From positions 2,046,001-2,110,000 of the forward strand of contig NZ_LT900217.1 of NCBI RefSeq assembly GCF_900199375.1: a DNA stretch of 64,000 nt, given 5' to 3'. Source of the stretch: Gordonibacter urolithinfaciens. Its GTDB lineage: Bacteria; Actinomycetota; Coriobacteriia; Coriobacteriales; Eggerthellaceae. Within the stretch, counting starts at the first letter, position 1, and the number at the start of each line of letters is the position of its first letter. Shown here piece after piece: positions 12,690-21,815 of the stretch. The translations under genes were made by a program, and so were the position numbers. The notes under the pieces were generated by a model. It was not told the DNA's origin, did not search any database, and worked only from the letters and a program-made list of their open reading frames with translations.

Positions 12690-14378
12690 GTGTTGAGCGA
12701 CATCGAAATTGCCCAGGCAACGAAGCCGCAGCCTATCAGCGCCATCGCCGAGAAGGCGGGCGTGCCGGAAACGTACCTGGAGATGTACGGCACCAACAAG
12801 GCGAAGGTGGACTACAACCTGCTCAAGGACGTGGAGCACGAGCCGGGCAAGCTCATCCTGGTCACCGCCATCAACCCCACGCCGGCCGGTGAGGGCAAGA
12901 CCACCACGACGGTGGGCCTGGCCGACGCGCTGGCGAAGCAGGGCAAGAACGTGGTCGTGGCGCTGCGCGAGCCGTCGCTCGGCCCCGTGTTCGGCATCAA
13001 GGGCGGTGCGGCCGGCGGCGGGTACGCCCAGGTCATCCCCATGGAGGACATCAACCTGCACTTCACGGGCGACTTCCACGCCATCGGCGCGGCCAACAAC
13101 CTGCTGGCGGCCCTGCTGGACGCGCACATCCACAACGGAAACGAGCTGGGCATCGACGTGCGCAAGATCACGTGGAAGCGCGTGGTGGACATGAACGACC
13201 GCCAGCTGCGCAACATCGTGGACGGCCTGGGCGGCAAGGCCCACGGCGTGCCGCGCGAGGACGGCTTCGACATCACGGTGGCCTCCGAGGTCATGGCCAT
13301 TTTCTGCCTGGCCACGTCCATCATCGACCTCAAGGAGCGCCTGGGCCGCATCGTGGTGGGCTACACCTACGACGACAAGCCGGTCACGGCGCACGACCTG
13401 CATGCGGAAGGCGCCATGACGGCCCTGCTCAAAGACGCGCTCAAGCCCAACCTCGTGCAGACGCTCGAGGGCACGCCCGCGTTCGTGCACGGCGGCCCCT
13501 TCGCCAACATCGCGCACGGCTGCAACTCAATCATGGCCACGCGCATGGCCATGGCGCTGGGCGACTACTGCGTGACGGAGGCCGGCTTCGGCGCCGACCT
13601 GGGCGCGGAGAAGTTCCTGGACATCAAGTGCCGTTTGGCGGGCCTCAAGCCCGACGCCGTGGTCGTGGTTGCCACGGTGCGCGCCTTGAAGAATCACGGC
13701 GGCGTGGCGAAGGCGGACCTCAACGAGGAGAACCTCGAGGCCCTGGAGGCCGGCCTGCCCAACTTGCTGCAGCACGTGGAGAACATCACGCAGGTATACA
13801 AACTGCCGTGCGTGGTGGCCATCAACGCGTTCCCCACCGACACGAAGGCCGAGCTCGACCTCGTGGAGGCCAAGTGCCGCGAGCTGGGCGTGAACGTGGC
13901 GCTTTCCGAGGTATGGGCGAAGGGCGGCGAGGGCGGCCAGGCGTTGGCGACCGAGGTGGTGCGCCTGTGCGCCGAGGGCGACGCCGAGGGCCGCAGCGCC
14001 GAGACGTTCGAGTTCTCCTACGGCGACGACCTGACGCTGGCCGAGAAGATTGAGGCCATCGCCAAGCGCATCTACCACGCAGACGGCGTCGTGTTCGAGC
14101 CGGCCGCGAAGAAGGAGCTGGCCCAGCTGGAGGCGCTCGGCTTCGGCGCCATGCCCGTGTGCATGGCCAAGACGCAGTACTCCTTCAGCGACGACGCGTC
14201 CAAGCTGGGCGCGCCGCGCGGCTTCACCGTGACCGTGCGCCAAGTGAAGGTGTCGGCCGGCGCCGGCTTCGTGGTGGCGCTCACGGGTTCGATCATGACG
14301 ATGCCGGGCCTTGGGAAGGCCCCCGCCGCCTTCAAGATCGACGTGGACGAGAACGGCAAGATCAGCGGGTTGTTCTAA
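12690..14378 (+). CDS. fhs: Formate--tetrahydrofolate ligase
   Basis: 562 residues; GTG 12690 (alternative TTG one codon later) with gaaaagggaggg upstream. The enzyme joins formate to tetrahydrofolate with ATP, giving 10-formyl-THF, the entry step of the Wood-Ljungdahl methyl branch. The ATP site [14 protein letters not shown] is at residues 63-76; [20 protein letters not shown] and FTGDFHAI are family marks, and the C-terminus [15 protein letters not shown] is intact. Length is normal. It lies 1.8 kb upstream of fchA-folD-formate dehydrogenase, separated by an ATPase on the other strand. A -10-like tagaat lies near 12645. Confidence 0.97.
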
Positions 14379-14448: not shown

Positions 14449-15744
14449 CTATGCGGTGAGCGACGTGATGGGAACCACGTACACCCCCTCGGGCGTCTTG
14501 CGGCAGAAAGCCGCTTTGCCTACCAGAACGGCGAGGAAAGCGGGTTCCTTGTTGCGGGCAGCCGGGTTGGAGGACACCTTGTTCGCAAGCCTCGTGAGGC
14601 TCCTGACCGCTTCGGGCACCTTCTCGTCGCTGAGCTTGATCTCCAGCGCGCCCCATCGACCGTCGGCAAGCTCGATGACGGCATCCACTTCAAGCCCGTC
14701 CGAGTCGGCGTAGTAGAGCACCTCCGCCTCGGGTGCCTGCTGCAACGCCGCCGCGTACACGCGCAGGTCGCGCAGGCAGAGCTCCTCGAAAAGGTTGCCG
14801 AACAACTGCGTCTCGAACAACAGGCGCTCCGGTGCCACGCCGAGGAGCGAAGCCGGCAGAGAAGGATCGGCGAAGGTTCGCTTGGGCTTCGTGCGCACGC
14901 GCGAGCGTGATTTGATCGGCGCATCCCAGCCCCTTTGATCTTCGATGAAGTATTGGGCTTTAAAAAAGCTCAGATACGGTTCAAGGCGCTCGCGAACGCC
15001 CGCATCGCTCAACTTGCTCGACGGTTCGCCTTCGGACACGTCGGCGAACAGCGTTTTGTAGGTGAGCGTTTTACCGGTGTTTCTTGCCAGGGATACCGCC
15101 ACCCGTCGGGCAAGGTAGGGATCAAGATCGGCTTTGCGTGCACTAACTTCGAACAATGCGGCGAGATACTGTGCGGGGAGATCACGCGCGAGGGAAGGGT
15201 CGACGTCGAGCGAGGCGGGCCAGCCTCCTTGGCAGATGAGGCGGGCGAGGCTTCTGACGTCGGTTTTGACCGCGCGCTGTTCGAAGGATCCCTCGAAAAG
15301 GCCGCGCAGGGAAACCGACTGGTCGGAATCTCCGCTTTCGGCCAGGCTCATGGGGCGCATGTGCAGGCGGGCGATGCGGCCCGCCCCGCTATGGGAAACC
15401 TGCCTTTTGTCCACCGTGGACGAGCCGGTGAGGATGAACTGCCCCTTCTCGTTTCCCGTCGCATCTACGTAACGCCTGACGGTGTCCCAGATTTTGGGAA
15501 CCTCCTGCCATTCGTCTATGATATGGGGCCGCGCCCCTTCAAGCGCCAGGCTCGCATCCAACTCGATGGCGGGTTGCACGGCGTCGTCGTCAATGTGGAC
15601 GATGCTCTCTCCTTGCGCCATGCTGCTCCATGTTTTGCCGCAGAACTTGGGGCCCGCCACTTCGACTGCTCCGAATGCTTTGAGCGCGCGGGCAAGTTTC
15701 TCATCGATGATCCGAGGTCGATACGCCGATGGCTGTAAGCTCAT
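14449..15744 (-). CDS. AAA-family ATPase with DUF4143 C-terminal domain
   Basis: 431 residues; ATG 15744 with tcggaggga upstream. The N-terminal AAA_14-type ATPase has a Walker A GPKFCGKTWS (residues 31-40) and a Walker B-like PHIIDEW; FILTGSSTVDKR is the sensor I region. The C-terminal half (FETQLFGNLFEELCLRDLRV, then YYADSDGLEVDAVIELADG) is the DUF4143 nuclease-fold domain. Function of the family is unsettled; links to defence and mobile DNA have been suggested. It lies opposite to and within the one-carbon gene block, so it is probably an insertion. Three 23-bp repeats lie upstream. Confidence 0.88.
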   Translation of the reverse strand: MSLQPSAYRPRIIDEKLARALKAFGAVEVAGPKFCGKTWSSMAQGESIVHIDDDAVQPAIELDASLALEGARPHIIDEWQEVPKIWDTVRRYVDATGNEKGQFILTGSSTVDKRQVSHSGAGRIARLHMRPMSLAESGDSDQSVSLRGLFEGSFEQRAVKTDVRSLARLICQGGWPASLDVDPSLARDLPAQYLAALFEVSARKADLDPYLARRVAVSLARNTGKTLTYKTLFADVSEGEPSSKLSDAGVRERLEPYLSFFKAQYFIEDQRGWDAPIKSRSRVRTKPKRTFADPSLPASLLGVAPERLLFETQLFGNLFEELCLRDLRVYAAALQQAPEAEVLYYADSDGLEVDAVIELADGRWGALEIKLSDEKVPEAVRSLTRLANKVSSNPAARNKEPAFLAVLVGKAAFCRKTPEGVYVVPITSLTA

Positions 15745-15951: not shown

Positions 15952-16006
15952 ATTTTCGCTCCAAAAACACGCCTCAGCGCACGAGGCGTGTTTTTGGAGC
16001 GAAAAT
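15952..16006. repeat. Perfect 23-bp inverted repeat
   Basis: 15952-15974 pairs with 15984-16006 around a 9-base loop. The arms begin attttcgctccaaaaa. It stands in the gap between the ATPase and fchA, far from any stop codon, so it is more like a dispersed palindromic element than a terminator. The rest of the 15745-16173 gap holds the repeats above, a run of g at 16009-16016 and a -10-like tatcat at 16089 that may serve fchA. Confidence 0.75.
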
Positions 16007-16173: not shown

Positions 16174-16788
16174 ATGTACGACACCTCATTCATCGACGAG
16201 CTGGCCAGCGCGGCGCCCACGCCGGGCGGCGGCGGGGCCTCGGCCTACGCGGGCGCGCTCGCGGCGGCGCTCGCCTCCATGGTGGGCAACCTCACGGTGG
16301 GGAAGAAGACCTACGCCGACGTGGAGGACGAGGTGCGCGCCTCGCTTGCGCGCCTCGACGCGCTGCGCGCCCGCCTGGTGGAGCTCGTGGACGAGGACGC
16401 CCGCGCGTTCGAGCCCCTGGCCGCCGCCTACCGCCTGCCGAAGGCCACGCCGGATGAGCAGGCCGCCAAGAACGCGGCGCTCCAGCAGGCGCTCGTCGGC
16501 GCGAGCGACGTCCCCCTCGCCATCATGCGCGCCGTGGCCGACGTGGTGGACGAGGCCGACTACCTGGCCCATCACGGCTCCAAGATGGCGCGCTCCGACG
16601 CGGGCGTGGCCGCCGCGTTCGCCCGGGCCGCCTCCGACGGGGCCAGCCTCAACATCTTCATCAACGCCGCCTCCATGGACGACGCTGCCCAGGCCGCGCG
16701 CTACCGCGGCGAGGCCGAGTCGCTGGCCGCGCGCACGCGTGAGCGCTGCGACGAGCTGTTCGACTTCGTGAAAACGTCCGTCTCGTAA
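16174..16788 (+). CDS. fchA: Methenyltetrahydrofolate cyclohydrolase, FchA/cyclodeaminase family
   Basis: 204 residues; ATG 16174 follows aaagggagg. The sequence matches the cyclodeaminase fold (FIDELASAAPTPGGGGASAY at residues 5-24, then GNLTVGKKTY) that works in formiminotransferase-cyclodeaminase and, as FchA, hydrolyses 5,10-methenyl-THF to 10-formyl-THF. It is 26 bases upstream of folD, whose product lacks its own cyclohydrolase residues, which supports the FchA assignment over histidine degradation. No formiminotransferase gene is near. It is the first gene of a run through 21815. Confidence 0.85.
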   Translation: MYDTSFIDELASAAPTPGGGGASAYAGALAAALASMVGNLTVGKKTYADVEDEVRASLARLDALRARLVELVDEDARAFEPLAAAYRLPKATPDEQAAKNAALQQALVGASDVPLAIMRAVADVVDEADYLAHHGSKMARSDAGVAAAFARAASDGASLNIFINAASMDDAAQAARYRGEAESLAARTRERCDELFDFVKTSVS

Positions 16789-16813
16789 ACCCTCGAAGGA
16801 GCGAATCACTCCC

Positions 16814-17683
16814 ATGGCAACCCTCCTCACCGGAAAGCCCGTCGTCGACCGCTTGGCGCAGGAGCTCGCGCCGCGCATCGAGGCGCTCGGGCTCGCCGGC
16901 ATCGTGCCCGCGCTCGTCATCGTGCGCATGGGCGAGCGCCCCGACGACCTGTCCTACGAGCGCACCGCCCAGAAGCGCGCCGAGTCGCTCGGCATCGCCG
17001 TGCGTTCGTTCGTCCTGCCAGAGGACGCCCCGCAGGAGGTCCTCGAAGCCGCGCTCGCCGAGGTGAACGCCGACGCCTCCATCCACGGCTGCCTGCTGTT
17101 CCGCCCGCTGCCCGTGCACATCGACGAGGCGCGCGCCTGCGAGCTGCTGTCCCCCGAGAAGGATGTCGACGGCATCACGCTCGCCTCGCTGGCCTCGGTG
17201 TTCACCGACGGCGCCACGGGCTTTCCGCCCTCGACGGCCGCCGCGTGCCTCGAGCTGCTCGACCATTACGGAGTGCCGCTCGAAGGCAAGCGCGTGGCGG
17301 TGGCGGGCCGCAGCCTGGTGGTGGGCAAGCCCGTGTCCATGATGCTGCTGCGCCGCAACGCCACGGTGACGCTCTGCCATAGCAGGACCGAGAACCTTGC
17401 CGAGGTCGTGTGCGCCTCCGACGTCGTGATCTGCGCCACCGGCCGTGCCCGCATGTTCGGCGCGGAGTTCTTCCGCCCCGGGCAGACGGTGCTCGACGTG
17501 GGCATCAACTTCGACGCCGACGGCAACCTCTGCGGCGACGTGGACTTCGACGCGGCAGAGCCGGTGGTGGACGCCCTCACGCCCGTGCCGCGCGGCCTGG
17601 GCACGGTGACCACCAGCGTCACGATGGCCCACACCGTGGCCGCCGCCGAGGCCGCGCTCGCCGCGCGCGAAGGAGGGCGGTGA
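16814..17683 (+). CDS. folD: Methylenetetrahydrofolate dehydrogenase, probably without cyclohydrolase activity
   Basis: 289 residues. The NAD(P)-binding domain has GKRVAVAGRSLVVGKPVS and the C-terminal GLGTVTTSVTMAHTV of the FolD family, and the KDVDG motif (Asp117) is kept. In the motif that normally reads YVxxKxK, this protein has YERTAQK, so the catalytic lysine is Ala52; the usual Gln of GILVQLPLP is Phe96 (GCLLFRPLP). Loss of both matches monofunctional dehydrogenases of acetogens and yeast MTD1. With FchA encoded just upstream, the pair would cover methylene-THF to formyl-THF in two proteins. The stop overlaps the GTG of the next gene. Confidence 0.93.
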   Translation: MATLLTGKPVVDRLAQELAPRIEALGLAGIVPALVIVRMGERPDDLSYERTAQKRAESLGIAVRSFVLPEDAPQEVLEAALAEVNADASIHGCLLFRPLPVHIDEARACELLSPEKDVDGITLASLASVFTDGATGFPPSTAAACLELLDHYGVPLEGKRVAVAGRSLVVGKPVSMMLLRRNATVTLCHSRTENLAEVVCASDVVICATGRARMFGAEFFRPGQTVLDVGINFDADGNLCGDVDFDAAEPVVDALTPVPRGLGTVTTSVTMAHTVAAAEAALAAREGGR

Positions 17684-18339
17684 GCTTGCGCGCAGCGACG
17701 CCTGCCGGCAGGAAGTTCATCATCGCCGACCCTTCGGTCTGCATCGGCTGCAAGACGTGCATGGCGGCCTGCCTCATGCGCCATGACGCCCCCGGCGACG
17801 TGGCGGTGCCGCGCCTCACGCTGGTCACGACGCGCACCATATCGGCGCCCGTGGGCTGCCATCACTGCGCCGAGGCGCCGTGCGTGGACGCGTGCCCCAC
17901 GGGCTGCCTGTTCAGCGACGACGAGCATGTGGGCGTGCACCCCGAGAAGTGCATCGGCTGCCGCAACTGCGTGCTGGCCTGCCCTTACGGCGCCGTGGAG
18001 ATCGTGACCGAGAAGCTGCCGCCCGAGCCGGAGCCCACGCCCGAGGAGGCGGCCGCGGCCGACGCGGCGGCCAAGGACGACAAGTCCGCCAAGGGCGCGC
18101 GGGCGCGGGCCCGGGCGAAGAAGCGCAAGCGCACGCGCTCGACGGTGGTGAAGTGCGACCTGTGCACGGGATGCGCGGGCGGCCCGGCGTGCGCGAAGGC
18201 GTGCCCGACCGACGCGCTGCGCCTGATAGACGCCGACTTCATGGAGCGCGCGCGCCAAAGCAAGCGCAAGGCGGCGGCCCGCGCCACGGCGTCGTTCGCC
18301 AGCATGAAGCTCAACGCGAGCCTGGACGAGGGGGAGTAG
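17680..18339 (+). CDS. Four-cluster ferredoxin-type subunit (HydN/HycB-like) of formate dehydrogenase
   Basis: 219 residues from GTG 17680, whose bases overlap the folD stop; a TTG at 17686 has better spacing to aaggagg and may be the true start. Cysteine groups CIGCKTCMAAC, CHHCAEAPCVDAC, CIGCRNCVLAC and CDLCTGC...CAKAC give four 4Fe-4S sites, as in the HycB/HydN family that shuttles electrons from formate dehydrogenase. A charged low-complexity insert rich in Glu, Ala and then Arg/Lys separates clusters three and four, which is unusual. It ends five bases before the catalytic subunit. Confidence 0.88.
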   Translation: MSLRAATPAGRKFIIADPSVCIGCKTCMAACLMRHDAPGDVAVPRLTLVTTRTISAPVGCHHCAEAPCVDACPTGCLFSDDEHVGVHPEKCIGCRNCVLACPYGAVEIVTEKLPPEPEPTPEEAAAADAAAKDDKSAKGARARARAKKRKRTRSTVVKCDLCTGCAGGPACAKACPTDALRLIDADFMERARQSKRKAAARATASFASMKLNASLDEGE

Positions 18340-18343
18340 CCTC

Positions 18344-20671
18344 ATGGAGAAGCATATGGCGGTGTGCCCGTACTGCGGCGCGGGTTGCAAGATGAATCTG
18401 GCGGTGGAGAACGGCCGGGTCATCGACGCGGAGGGACTGGACGGCATCACGAACGAGGGCGAGCTGTGCCTCAAGGGCCTCTACGGCTACGACTTCGTCA
18501 ACGACACGCGCATCCTCACGCCGCGCATCTACCACCCGATGATCCGCCGGCGGAAGGGCGCGCCGCTTGAGCGCGTGACCTGGGACGAGGCGCTCGATTT
18601 CACGGCCAGCCGCCTGCGCGCCATCATCGAGGAGAGCGGTCCCGAGGCCGTCATGCTCACGGGGTCGTCTCGCGGGGCCGGCAACGAGGCCAACTTCGTC
18701 ATGCAGAAGTTCACGCGGGCGTGCCTCGGCACCAACAACATCGACAACTGCGCGCGCACCTGCCACGCGGCCAGCGTCATCGGCCTCATGGAGTGCGTGG
18801 GCTCGGGCGCGATGAGCGTGAGCATCCCCACGCTCGAGGAGGCGGACTGCATCCTGCTCATCGGCTACAACCCGGCGGCGAGCCATCCCATCGTGGCGCG
18901 CCGCATCGTGAAGGCGAAGGAGCGCGGCGCCGAGCTCATCGTGTGTGACCCGCGCGTCATCGAGAGCGCCCGCATCGCCGACCTCTACCTGCCGCTCGCG
19001 AACGGCTCGAACCTCGCCTTCGTGAACGCGCTCGCGTACACCATCGTCGACGAGGAGCTGGCCGACTTCGACTTCATCGACGAGCACACCGAGGGCTTCG
19101 ACGACTGGTGGGAGATCGTGCAGGACTACGCGCCCGAGGACGTGGAGGACGTGTGCGGCCTCCCCGCCGAGCTCATCCGCCAGGCCGCGCGCCGCTACGC
19201 AACGGCCGAGACGGCCATCGTGGGCTGGGGCATGGGCGTGACCCAGCACGCGCAGGGCGTGCAGACGGTGCGCGCCATCGCCGCGCTCGCGCTCATCACG
19301 GGCCACATCGGCAAGCCCCGAAGCGGCCTCGCGCCCGTGCGCGGGCAGAACAACGTGCAGGGCTCGTGCGACATGGGCATGTGGCCGAGCCTCTACCCCG
19401 GCTACCAGCGCGTGGACGACCCGGCCGCGCGCGCGAAGTTCGCCGCCGCCTGGGGCGTTCCCGAGGAGCGTCTGTCGCTCAAGCCCGGCTGGAAGCTCAC
19501 CGACCTGCCGCACGAGGTGGAGGAGGGCAAGATCCGCGCGTTCTACAACTTCGGCGAGGACCCGCTGCAAACCGAGCCCGACACGGCGCAGATGCGGCGC
19601 ACAATGGAGAACCTCGACCTCCTCATCAGCCAGGACATCTTCATGACGCAGACCACGGCGCTGGCCGACGTGGTGCTGCCCGCCACGTCGTGGGCCGAGC
19701 ACGACGCCGTGTACACCGCGTCGGACCGCTCGTTCCAGCTGACGACGGCCGCGCTGCCGCCGAAGGGCGAGTGCCGCCACGACTGGGAGATCTTCGCCGA
19801 CCTCTCCACCCGCATGGGTTATCCGATGCGCTATGAGAGCACGCGCGAGATCTGGGACGAGGTGCGCAGCCTCTGCCCGCAGTTCGCCGGGGCCACCTAC
19901 GAGAAGATGGCGGGCACGGGATACGCGCAGTGGCCCATCCGCGCCGAGGCGGCCGACGACCCCGACAACCACGGCACGCCGGAGCTCTACGCCGGCGGCG
20001 CGTTCACCACGCCAAACGGCAAGGGGCGCCTGGTGGCGGCGCACTGGCGTCCTCCCACCGAGAAGCCCGACGACGCCTGGCCGCTCGTGCTGTGCACGGT
20101 GCGCGAGGTGGGGCACTACTCGTGCCGCTCGATGACCGGCAACTGCAAGGCGCTGGCCGCGCTGGCCGACGAGCCCGGCTACGTGAGCATGAGTCCGGCC
20201 GACGCCGACGCGCGCGGCATCGAGGAGGAGCAGCTGGTGTGGGTGCGCTCGCGCCGCGGCAAGGTGCTCGCGCGCGCCGCGGTGGACGAGCGCGTGAACG
20301 AGGGCGCGGTGTACATGACCTACCAGTGGTGGATCGGCAAGTGCAACGAGCTTACGCTGCACGCGGTGGACGGCGAGTCGGGCACGCCCGAGGACAAGTA
20401 CAGCGCCTGCGAGGTGGAGGCGATCGCCGACCAACGCTGGGCGGAGGATCACCTGGTGGAGCGCTACGCCTCCCTCAAAGCCGAGCTGGCCGCCGAGGCC
20501 GACCGCCAGAACCCTCCGGAGCCGGAGCCGGAGGCGGCCGCCGAGCCCGCCGCGGCTGCGTCCGAGCCTTCCGACGAAGCTCCAACCCCCGCCGCCGCCT
20601 TCGCCCCCCACGAGGCCGAGGTGGCGGGCCGGGCGCTCTACGCGAACGGCGAGGAGGAGACGCTCGTATGA
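18344..20671 (+). CDS. Formate dehydrogenase catalytic subunit, cysteine form
   Basis: 775 residues. Fe-S ligands Cys8, Cys11, Cys15 and Cys42, Lys44 next to them, and Cys140-His141 align position for position with E. coli FdhF, whose residue 140 is selenocysteine; here it is an ordinary cysteine codon. Motif ARTCHAASVIGLMECVGSGA surrounds it. The molybdopterin domains follow (GYNPAASHPIVARRIVKAKE; ADVVLPATSWAEHD). The last about 85 residues form a Pro/Glu/Ala-rich tail not usual in the family. No Tat signal, so it is cytoplasmic. With three ferredoxin-type partners and the methyl-branch genes upstream, CO2 reduction or formate oxidation feeding fhs is the likely role. Confidence 0.95.
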   Translation: MEKHMAVCPYCGAGCKMNLAVENGRVIDAEGLDGITNEGELCLKGLYGYDFVNDTRILTPRIYHPMIRRRKGAPLERVTWDEALDFTASRLRAIIEESGPEAVMLTGSSRGAGNEANFVMQKFTRACLGTNNIDNCARTCHAASVIGLMECVGSGAMSVSIPTLEEADCILLIGYNPAASHPIVARRIVKAKERGAELIVCDPRVIESARIADLYLPLANGSNLAFVNALAYTIVDEELADFDFIDEHTEGFDDWWEIVQDYAPEDVEDVCGLPAELIRQAARRYATAETAIVGWGMGVTQHAQGVQTVRAIAALALITGHIGKPRSGLAPVRGQNNVQGSCDMGMWPSLYPGYQRVDDPAARAKFAAAWGVPEERLSLKPGWKLTDLPHEVEEGKIRAFYNFGEDPLQTEPDTAQMRRTMENLDLLISQDIFMTQTTALADVVLPATSWAEHDAVYTASDRSFQLTTAALPPKGECRHDWEIFADLSTRMGYPMRYESTREIWDEVRSLCPQFAGATYEKMAGTGYAQWPIRAEAADDPDNHGTPELYAGGAFTTPNGKGRLVAAHWRPPTEKPDDAWPLVLCTVREVGHYSCRSMTGNCKALAALADEPGYVSMSPADADARGIEEEQLVWVRSRRGKVLARAAVDERVNEGAVYMTYQWWIGKCNELTLHAVDGESGTPEDKYSACEVEAIADQRWAEDHLVERYASLKAELAAEADRQNPPEPEPEAAAEPAAAASEPSDEAPTPAAAFAPHEAEVAGRALYANGEEETLV

Positions 20672-21291
20672 ACCGCTTCGTCGTGTCCGACCCCGCGCGC
20701 TGCATCGGCTGCGGCGCGTGCCGCGTGACGTGCAGCGAGGCGCACCGCAAGCGCGCGCTGCGCCCGGCGTCGCGCCTCTCGCTCGTGAAGACCCGCGAGG
20801 TGTCGGCCGCGGTGACGTGCCACCAGTGCGAGGGCGCGCCCTGCCTGGCGGTGTGCCCGGAAGGGGCCATCTACCAGGAGCGCGACCGCCTGCAAGTTGA
20901 CGAGGGCCGCTGCACGGGCTGCCTGCTGTGCGCGCTCGCGTGCCCGTTCGGGGCCGTCTACCCCTCGGCTCCCTCCACCGCGCACGTGAAGGCCGCGCCG
21001 TACAGCCGCGCGTCGTCGGCGCGCTCGGCGGGGCTGCTGCGCCAGAAGGAGACGGGCGCGTACACGAGCGTGGTGGTGTGCGACCTGTGCGCGAAGTCGC
21101 CCGACGGGCCGCGCTGCGTGGAGGCCTGCCCCACGAAGGCGCTCGCGCTCGTAGACGAGGAGATGCTCGAGGCGCTGGGGAAGAACCGCCGCATCGAGGC
21201 CGTCGAGCGGGCTGAAGCAGCCCTGCGCGGCGGGCTTCCCGACGATGCGTTCGCGGGAATGTTCGATCTGCTCGAGGAGGTCGATCGCTGA
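20668..21291 (+). CDS. Four-cluster ferredoxin-type electron transfer protein (HycB-like)
   Basis: 207 residues; its ATG overlaps the formate dehydrogenase stop (ATGA), so translation is coupled. Cysteine groups CIGCGACRVTC, CHQCEGAPCLAVC, CTGCLLCALAC and CDLC...CVEAC are those of a four-cluster HycB/FdhB subunit. It resembles the product of the gene upstream of the catalytic subunit, so the complex has two such proteins flanking it. The C-terminal 50 residues are helical and without cysteine. Likely wires the catalytic subunit to a further acceptor. Confidence 0.9.
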   Translation: MNRFVVSDPARCIGCGACRVTCSEAHRKRALRPASRLSLVKTREVSAAVTCHQCEGAPCLAVCPEGAIYQERDRLQVDEGRCTGCLLCALACPFGAVYPSAPSTAHVKAAPYSRASSARSAGLLRQKETGAYTSVVVCDLCAKSPDGPRCVEACPTKALALVDEEMLEALGKNRRIEAVERAEAALRGGLPDDAFAGMFDLLEEVDR

Positions 21292-21815
21292 TGGCGAACG
21301 TGAAGCCCCGCACGTCGAACCCCATCTCGAGCCGCGACCGCGCGACGGGGGTTCGGCGCGCCTCGAGCGTGGTGGAGGGCAAGCCGCGCCACGACTTCTC
21401 CGCCTGCATCGCATGCGCCGCCTGCGCGGCGGCCTGCGACGCGAACGCCATCCGCATCTTCATCGACGAGGACGAGGGCCTGCTGGTGTGGACGCTCGAC
21501 CTGTTCGACTGCACGCAGTGCGGCCGCTGCGTGCCTGCGTGTCCCACCGGGGCCATGGACGTCATCGAGGGGGCCGACTTCGCCGACGAGCCCGAGCTGC
21601 CCAAGCGCTGCCTGTTCACGCTGGCGGAGTGCGAATCGTGCGGGCGCTACTACGCCACGAACAAGGAGATAGCGTTCGCGAACGCCCTGCTCGAGCAGGA
21701 GGAGCACGCCGACGCCGCCCGCGCCCGCGCGCTCATGGCCACCTGCCCCGACTGCAAGCGCACGCATGACGCCAAAGCCGCCGCCCGCCGCGCGGGGATG
21801 AAGCGGCGCCTGTAG
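21291..21815 (+). CDS. Ferredoxin-type protein with extra cysteine pairs (HycF/NuoI-like)
   Basis: 174 residues; the start shares a base with the previous stop (TGATG). Two 4Fe-4S motifs, CIACAACAAAC and CTQCGRCVPAC, in the central part, followed by CESC and CPDC pairs near the C-terminus that could bind zinc or another metal. The basic N-terminal 35 residues are not ferredoxin-like. It resembles the HycF/HyfH connectors of formate hydrogenlyase complexes, but no hydrogenase gene is in this window. It is the last gene of the operon. Confidence 0.85.
   Translation: MANVKPRTSNPISSRDRATGVRRASSVVEGKPRHDFSACIACAACAAACDANAIRIFIDEDEGLLVWTLDLFDCTQCGRCVPACPTGAMDVIEGADFADEPELPKRCLFTLAECESCGRYYATNKEIAFANALLEQEEHADAARARALMATCPDCKRTHDAKAAARRAGMKRRL

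Follow-up and report, generated by a model that had tools for sequence, protein, structure and literature searches.

Background

Clostridium perfringens reportedly has a FolD that acts as a dehydrogenase only and works alongside a separate FchA cyclohydrolase and Fhs, and in these features it resembles the locus described here. PMC7219735 cites an experimental study of the three C. perfringens proteins (Aluri et al. 2016, Microbiology 162:145). For the cyclohydrolase reaction of FolD, a Lys serves as general acid/base, a Gln positions this Lys, and an Asp binds the pterin (PMC3338484). In the acetogen Acetobacterium woodii, the genes are ordered fhs-fchA-folD as at the present locus (PMC10472528), and the methylene-THF dehydrogenases of A. 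woodii and Eubacterium callanderi are NADH-dependent (PMC3315566, PMC8760232). A working Wood-Ljungdahl route in E. lenta is unsettled (PMC10234575). The combination of a monofunctional FolD with FchA is thus already known from C. perfringens, other clostridia and acetogens; the present survey adds a rule on the residues and shows how far it extends in Coriobacteriia. The rule was not found stated in the literature searched, which was covered in part, and no priority is claimed.

The fchA-folD locus

The window is the whole 64,000-nt stretch of DNA that was analysed, from a gut-type actinobacterium; the features of the locus are listed in Table 1. The original prediction placed fchA directly upstream of folD, and both reading frames were recovered in this arrangement, head to tail on the + strand with a gap of 25 bp. 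Shine-Dalgarno-like sequences (AGGGAGG and AAGGAG) precede the ATG of fchA and of folD, respectively. The first HydN-like gene starts within the folD stop codon and opens a formate dehydrogenase cluster of the order hydN-like, fdhF, hydN-like, hycF-like. By translation, fdhF is of the Cys form (CARTCH), not the selenocysteine form.

Table 1 Features of the fchA-folD locus in the window
Feature	Position	Strand	Description	Evidence
fchA	16174..16788	+	204-aa methenyl-THF cyclohydrolase, FTCD_C family	PF04961; 7vg4 as best solved relative
folD	16814..17683	+	289-aa methylene-THF dehydrogenase without cyclohydrolase Lys and Gln	PF00763 and PF02882; alignment to PDB FolDs
folD codon 52, GCC (Ala)	16967..16969	+	position of the catalytic Lys	
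folD codon 96, TTC (Phe)	17099..17101	+	position of the catalytic Gln	
fhs	12690..14378	+	formate-THF ligase	NCBIfam NF010030, 927 bits (cut-off 652)
AAA_14/DUF4143 ATPase gene	14449..15744	-	between fhs and fchA	Pfam
HydN-like gene	17680..18339	+	4Fe-4S protein	NF007658, under cut-off; conserved order
fdhF	18344..20671	+	fdhF-type formate dehydrogenase alpha subunit	TIGR01591, 812 bits (cut-off 666)
Second HydN-like gene	20668..21291	+	4Fe-4S protein	NF007658, under cut-off
HycF/HyfH-like gene	21291..21815	+	4Fe-4S protein	NF009053, under cut-off

The order (fhs-)fchA-folD-hydN-fdhF-hydN-hycF is conserved in relatives belonging to several genera of the family, and in relatives fhs adjoins fchA. 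The AAA_14/DUF4143 gene is probably an insertion outside the pathway, since several relatives have no such gene separating fhs and fchA; comparison of the loci found none there in G127, G129 and G186. In the genus mate G065, a different AAA_14/DUF4143 ATPase, 37% identical, occupies the equivalent place.

Just upstream of fchA (15953-16005) lies an inverted repeat whose 23-bp arms match perfectly around a loop of 7 bases, with a predicted RNA fold of -41.5 kcal/mol (z -8). It was not found in the three genus mates, and a degenerate copy is present upstream of fchA in G025, a member of another genus (L344:7147-7190).

FolD residues

The protein matches both FolD domains and was aligned to solved FolDs, its sequence identity to which settles the fold; window Y48, A52, F96 and D119 fall at human Tyr52, Lys56, Gln100 and Asp125. 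The catalytic Lys of the bifunctional enzyme (K54 of E. coli and Pseudomonas aeruginosa) is therefore Ala52, and the Lys-positioning Gln98 of P. aeruginosa is Phe96. Tyr48, Asp119 and the NADP-site motifs GRS and HSR are retained, which bears out the original prediction that Lys and Gln had been replaced by Ala52 and Phe96 with the dehydrogenase motifs intact. The window FolD thus has the fold family, both Pfam domains and the conserved Tyr, Asp and NADP site in common with bifunctional FolD and the DC domain of human MTHFD1, and differs from them in the catalytic Lys and its Gln partner; a FolD fold that keeps Tyr, Asp and the NAD(P) site while the cyclohydrolase Lys is absent is what would be expected of a monofunctional dehydrogenase partnered with FchA. 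The NCBIfam cut-off for bifunctional FolD was not reached (244.8 bits against 421 for the best match listed). Sequencing error or chance as the source of A52 and F96 was excluded, the same kind of state being present at 88 loci in Coriobacteriia.

FchA identity and copy number

FchA matches PF04961 (E=1e-62, 211 bits). Its best solved relative, ahead of FTCD, is the methenyl-THF cyclohydrolase 7vg4 (E=5e-45), likewise a stand-alone enzyme, the Fch of Methylobacterium extorquens, whose partner dehydrogenase is MtdA and not FolD. The score of 196 bits against the NCBIfam equivalog NF045657 is under the cut-off of 275, and the assignment of this stand-alone FTCD_C protein rests on the closeness to a known cyclohydrolase and on context. 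It is extremely unlikely that the protein is instead a formimino-THF cyclodeaminase of histidine breakdown: such enzymes share PF04961, the missed FchA cut-off would agree with one, and a PF04961 protein of this sort occurs in a Clostridia genome of the survey (G593, below), but the solved relatives favour 7vg4 over FTCD (157 against 93 bits), the gene adjoins folD within the fhs/fdh cluster, where the annotated neighbours include neither urocanase nor formiminotransferase, and the genome would have no cyclohydrolase without it.

The genome is a single contig of 3.29 Mb, 99.97% complete, and contains exactly one PF00763 protein, FolD, and one PF04961 protein, FchA; the PF00763 search of the 3.29 Mb returned no second, bifunctional FolD. 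Residue states, single copies and gene order were thus established directly. As the genome encodes FolD and FchA once each, FchA would be needed for the route, and the claim that it is essential follows to this extent.

Proposed division of the two steps

The sequence points, with a probability of about 0.92, to a window FolD that is a monofunctional methylene-THF dehydrogenase and to FchA as the separate methenyl-THF cyclohydrolase. Formate, either taken up or generated from CO2 by the formate dehydrogenase encoded alongside, would be converted to 10-formyl-THF by Fhs, 10-formyl-THF to methenyl-THF by FchA, and methenyl-THF to methylene-THF by FolD; this presumed direction of flux would be reversed when carbon comes from serine. 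A FolD without the Lys would have no general acid/base for hydrolysis, with a Phe in place of the Gln that holds the Lys, and the loss of cyclohydrolase activity is put forward on these residues. FchA would then be all that connects formyl-THF with methylene-THF in these cells, which matters for metabolic models, where FolDs of the window's kind are usually entered as bifunctional.

Survey of Coriobacteriia

FolD was found in all 298 sampled genomes of Coriobacteriia and FchA in 219 of them. FolD residues were read at 137 loci, the window included. The FolDs of FchA-positive genomes were without Lys and Gln at 88 of 88 loci, position 52 being A, V, I, L or C and position 96 being F, L or M, and those of FchA-negative genomes kept K and Q at 49 of 49; these counts, like those for Clostridia below, include related genomes and are not independent events. 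At one of the 88 loci (L107), FchA is on another contig (L033). Families f1 and f2 are FchA-positive throughout the listing, and families outside the order are FchA-negative. Genus g44 and two small families contain both kinds, each following the residue rule. The swap of FolD type inside a single genus offers a natural experiment on why the two steps are split or fused. For Coriobacteriales, a major gut order, the usual label of bifunctional FolD is corrected for most of the order.

Survey of Clostridia

In a sample drawn from across the class, a Lys-less FolD was found in 105 of 107 FchA-positive genomes of Clostridia, 15 further FchA-positive genomes having been left out, and the Lys was kept in 39 of 39 FchA-negative genomes, which were the best- and worst-scoring ones and not a random draw; in these 39 genomes both K and Q are kept. 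A Lys-less FolD is the only kind present in 103 of the 107. G304 has both a Lys-less and a canonical FolD, with the Lys-less copy beside fchA. In G482 (L219, L237), a Lys-less FolD and FchA are accompanied by a second FolD of the canonical kind that is interrupted by an in-frame TAA, through either decay of a bifunctional copy or, equally conceivably, an error of assembly.

Two FchA-positive genomes, G349 and G593, have only a canonical FolD. The supposed FchA of G593 is a histidine-pathway cyclodeaminase and not FchA, because its neighbours are genes for urocanase, an imidazolonepropionase-like amidohydrolase and formiminotransferase. In G349, the FTCD_C protein (L339:4154-4774) is encoded at the end of a contig, next to ABC-transporter-like genes, and the sole FolD keeps Lys and Gln. 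The rule linking FchA to a Lys-less FolD is therefore not absolute, with G349 as one unexplained exception. Two other Clostridia genomes, G372 and G456, have FchA and no FolD match. The domain score alone was rejected as a means of telling the FolD types apart, since Lys and Gln are still present in some FolDs that score weakly in small Clostridia genomes (L223, L224, L226, L227, L229-L231).

The co-occurrence rule was read directly from the genomes and gives strong indirect support to the pair working as split enzymes. A FolD that is still bifunctional, with another residue standing in for the Lys and FchA merely adding flux, is very unlikely. Lys54 of the window FolD, two positions further along, is retained by the majority of Lys-less FolDs and might in principle extend to the site; it aligns, however, with a second Lys/Arg of canonical FolDs, the human enzyme among them, and is not a compensating gain. 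Retained bifunctionality would also give no reason why Lys and Gln are found in every FchA-negative genome and why the Lys is lost in nearly every FchA-positive one.

Cofactor and relation to acetogenesis

Acetobacterium and E. callanderi genomes were located with a 16S probe. Their FolDs have Ile and Phe at the two positions and are encoded beside fchA; as in the window, the Lys is lost and the Gln is replaced by Phe, and they fall in the same hydrophobic group of the FolD tree. They differ from the window FolD in having Ile and not Ala at the Lys position, in reading NNS for the GRS of the window FolD and HVH or HVF for its HSR, and in belonging to organisms with the full Wood-Ljungdahl pathway, including AcsB. 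Because GRS and HSR are kept in the window and lost in the NADH-dependent acetogen enzymes, the window FolD is predicted to use NADP(H) and not the NAD of A. woodii and E. callanderi.

Acetyl-CoA synthase (AcsB/CdhC, PF03598) had no match in the window's 99.97% complete genome and none in 56 of 57 genomes of the family, the window's included, while three acetogens used as positive controls matched at E<=5e-64. The sole PF03598 (CdhC) match among the family genomes searched (G116:C1:2585147-2585623, L354) is weak (E=1e-14) and falls in a frame of 304 aa, much shorter than AcsB. Since its genome is without acetyl-CoA synthase, the organism is not an AcsB-type acetogen. The fhs-fchA-folD set is that of cluster II of A. 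woodii (PMC10472528, PMC3315566) and is joined by a formate dehydrogenase, as would be expected of autotrophic Wood-Ljungdahl acetogenesis, but with PF03598 distributed in this way and with NADP-type motifs in FolD that are missing from the NADH-dependent enzymes of the acetogens, such a role for the locus is highly improbable. Biosynthesis and the use of formate are the most likely roles of the route, ahead of acetogenesis. The likeness to acetogens in the division of labour, proposed in the original prediction, holds in that the residue loss tracks FchA almost perfectly in two phyla and that acetogen FolDs share the residue state and tree group; it does not extend to acetyl-CoA synthase or to the cofactor motif.

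FolD trees and descent

Two FolD trees, one larger than the other and both unrooted, were built after the alignment columns at and near positions 52 and 96 had been taken out. In the smaller tree, a branch with 100/99 support sets apart the 28 rows in which a hydrophobic residue replaces the Gln, among them the window FolD and those of further Coriobacteriales, of many Clostridia and of the acetogens. In 11 Clostridium-like genomes with FchA, FolD is of a different type (Q/Q), with Gln at the Lys position and the other Gln kept where the window has A/F, a comparison that rests on these survey genomes and not on C. perfringens itself. The Q/Q type forms a separate group on the canonical side (6 rows, 100/99). 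Branches inside the tree are weak, and the trait changes needed are 3 in the larger tree and 1 in the other, the number of losses being unsettled in unrooted trees.

The trees fit one old split lineage that would have spread by gene replacement, together with at least one separate loss. It is somewhat more likely than not that the Lys-less FolDs with Phe, Leu or Met for the Gln are an old separate lineage that moves with fchA and has replaced bifunctional FolD in anaerobes. If this is true, FolD positions 52 and 96 would predict the presence of FchA from sequence alone, and very many FolDs labelled as bifunctional would be mislabelled.

On a smaller scale, fchA and folD of the window are 95% and 92% identical to those of G025 and 65% and 78% identical to those of G065 (loci L344, L341), whereas the M24 peptidase encoded beside them shares 93% identity with its G065 counterpart (over 105 aa) and 80% with that of G025. 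An exchange of the fchA-folD operon between genera is likely, because the two genes are closer to G025 and the peptidase is closer to G065.
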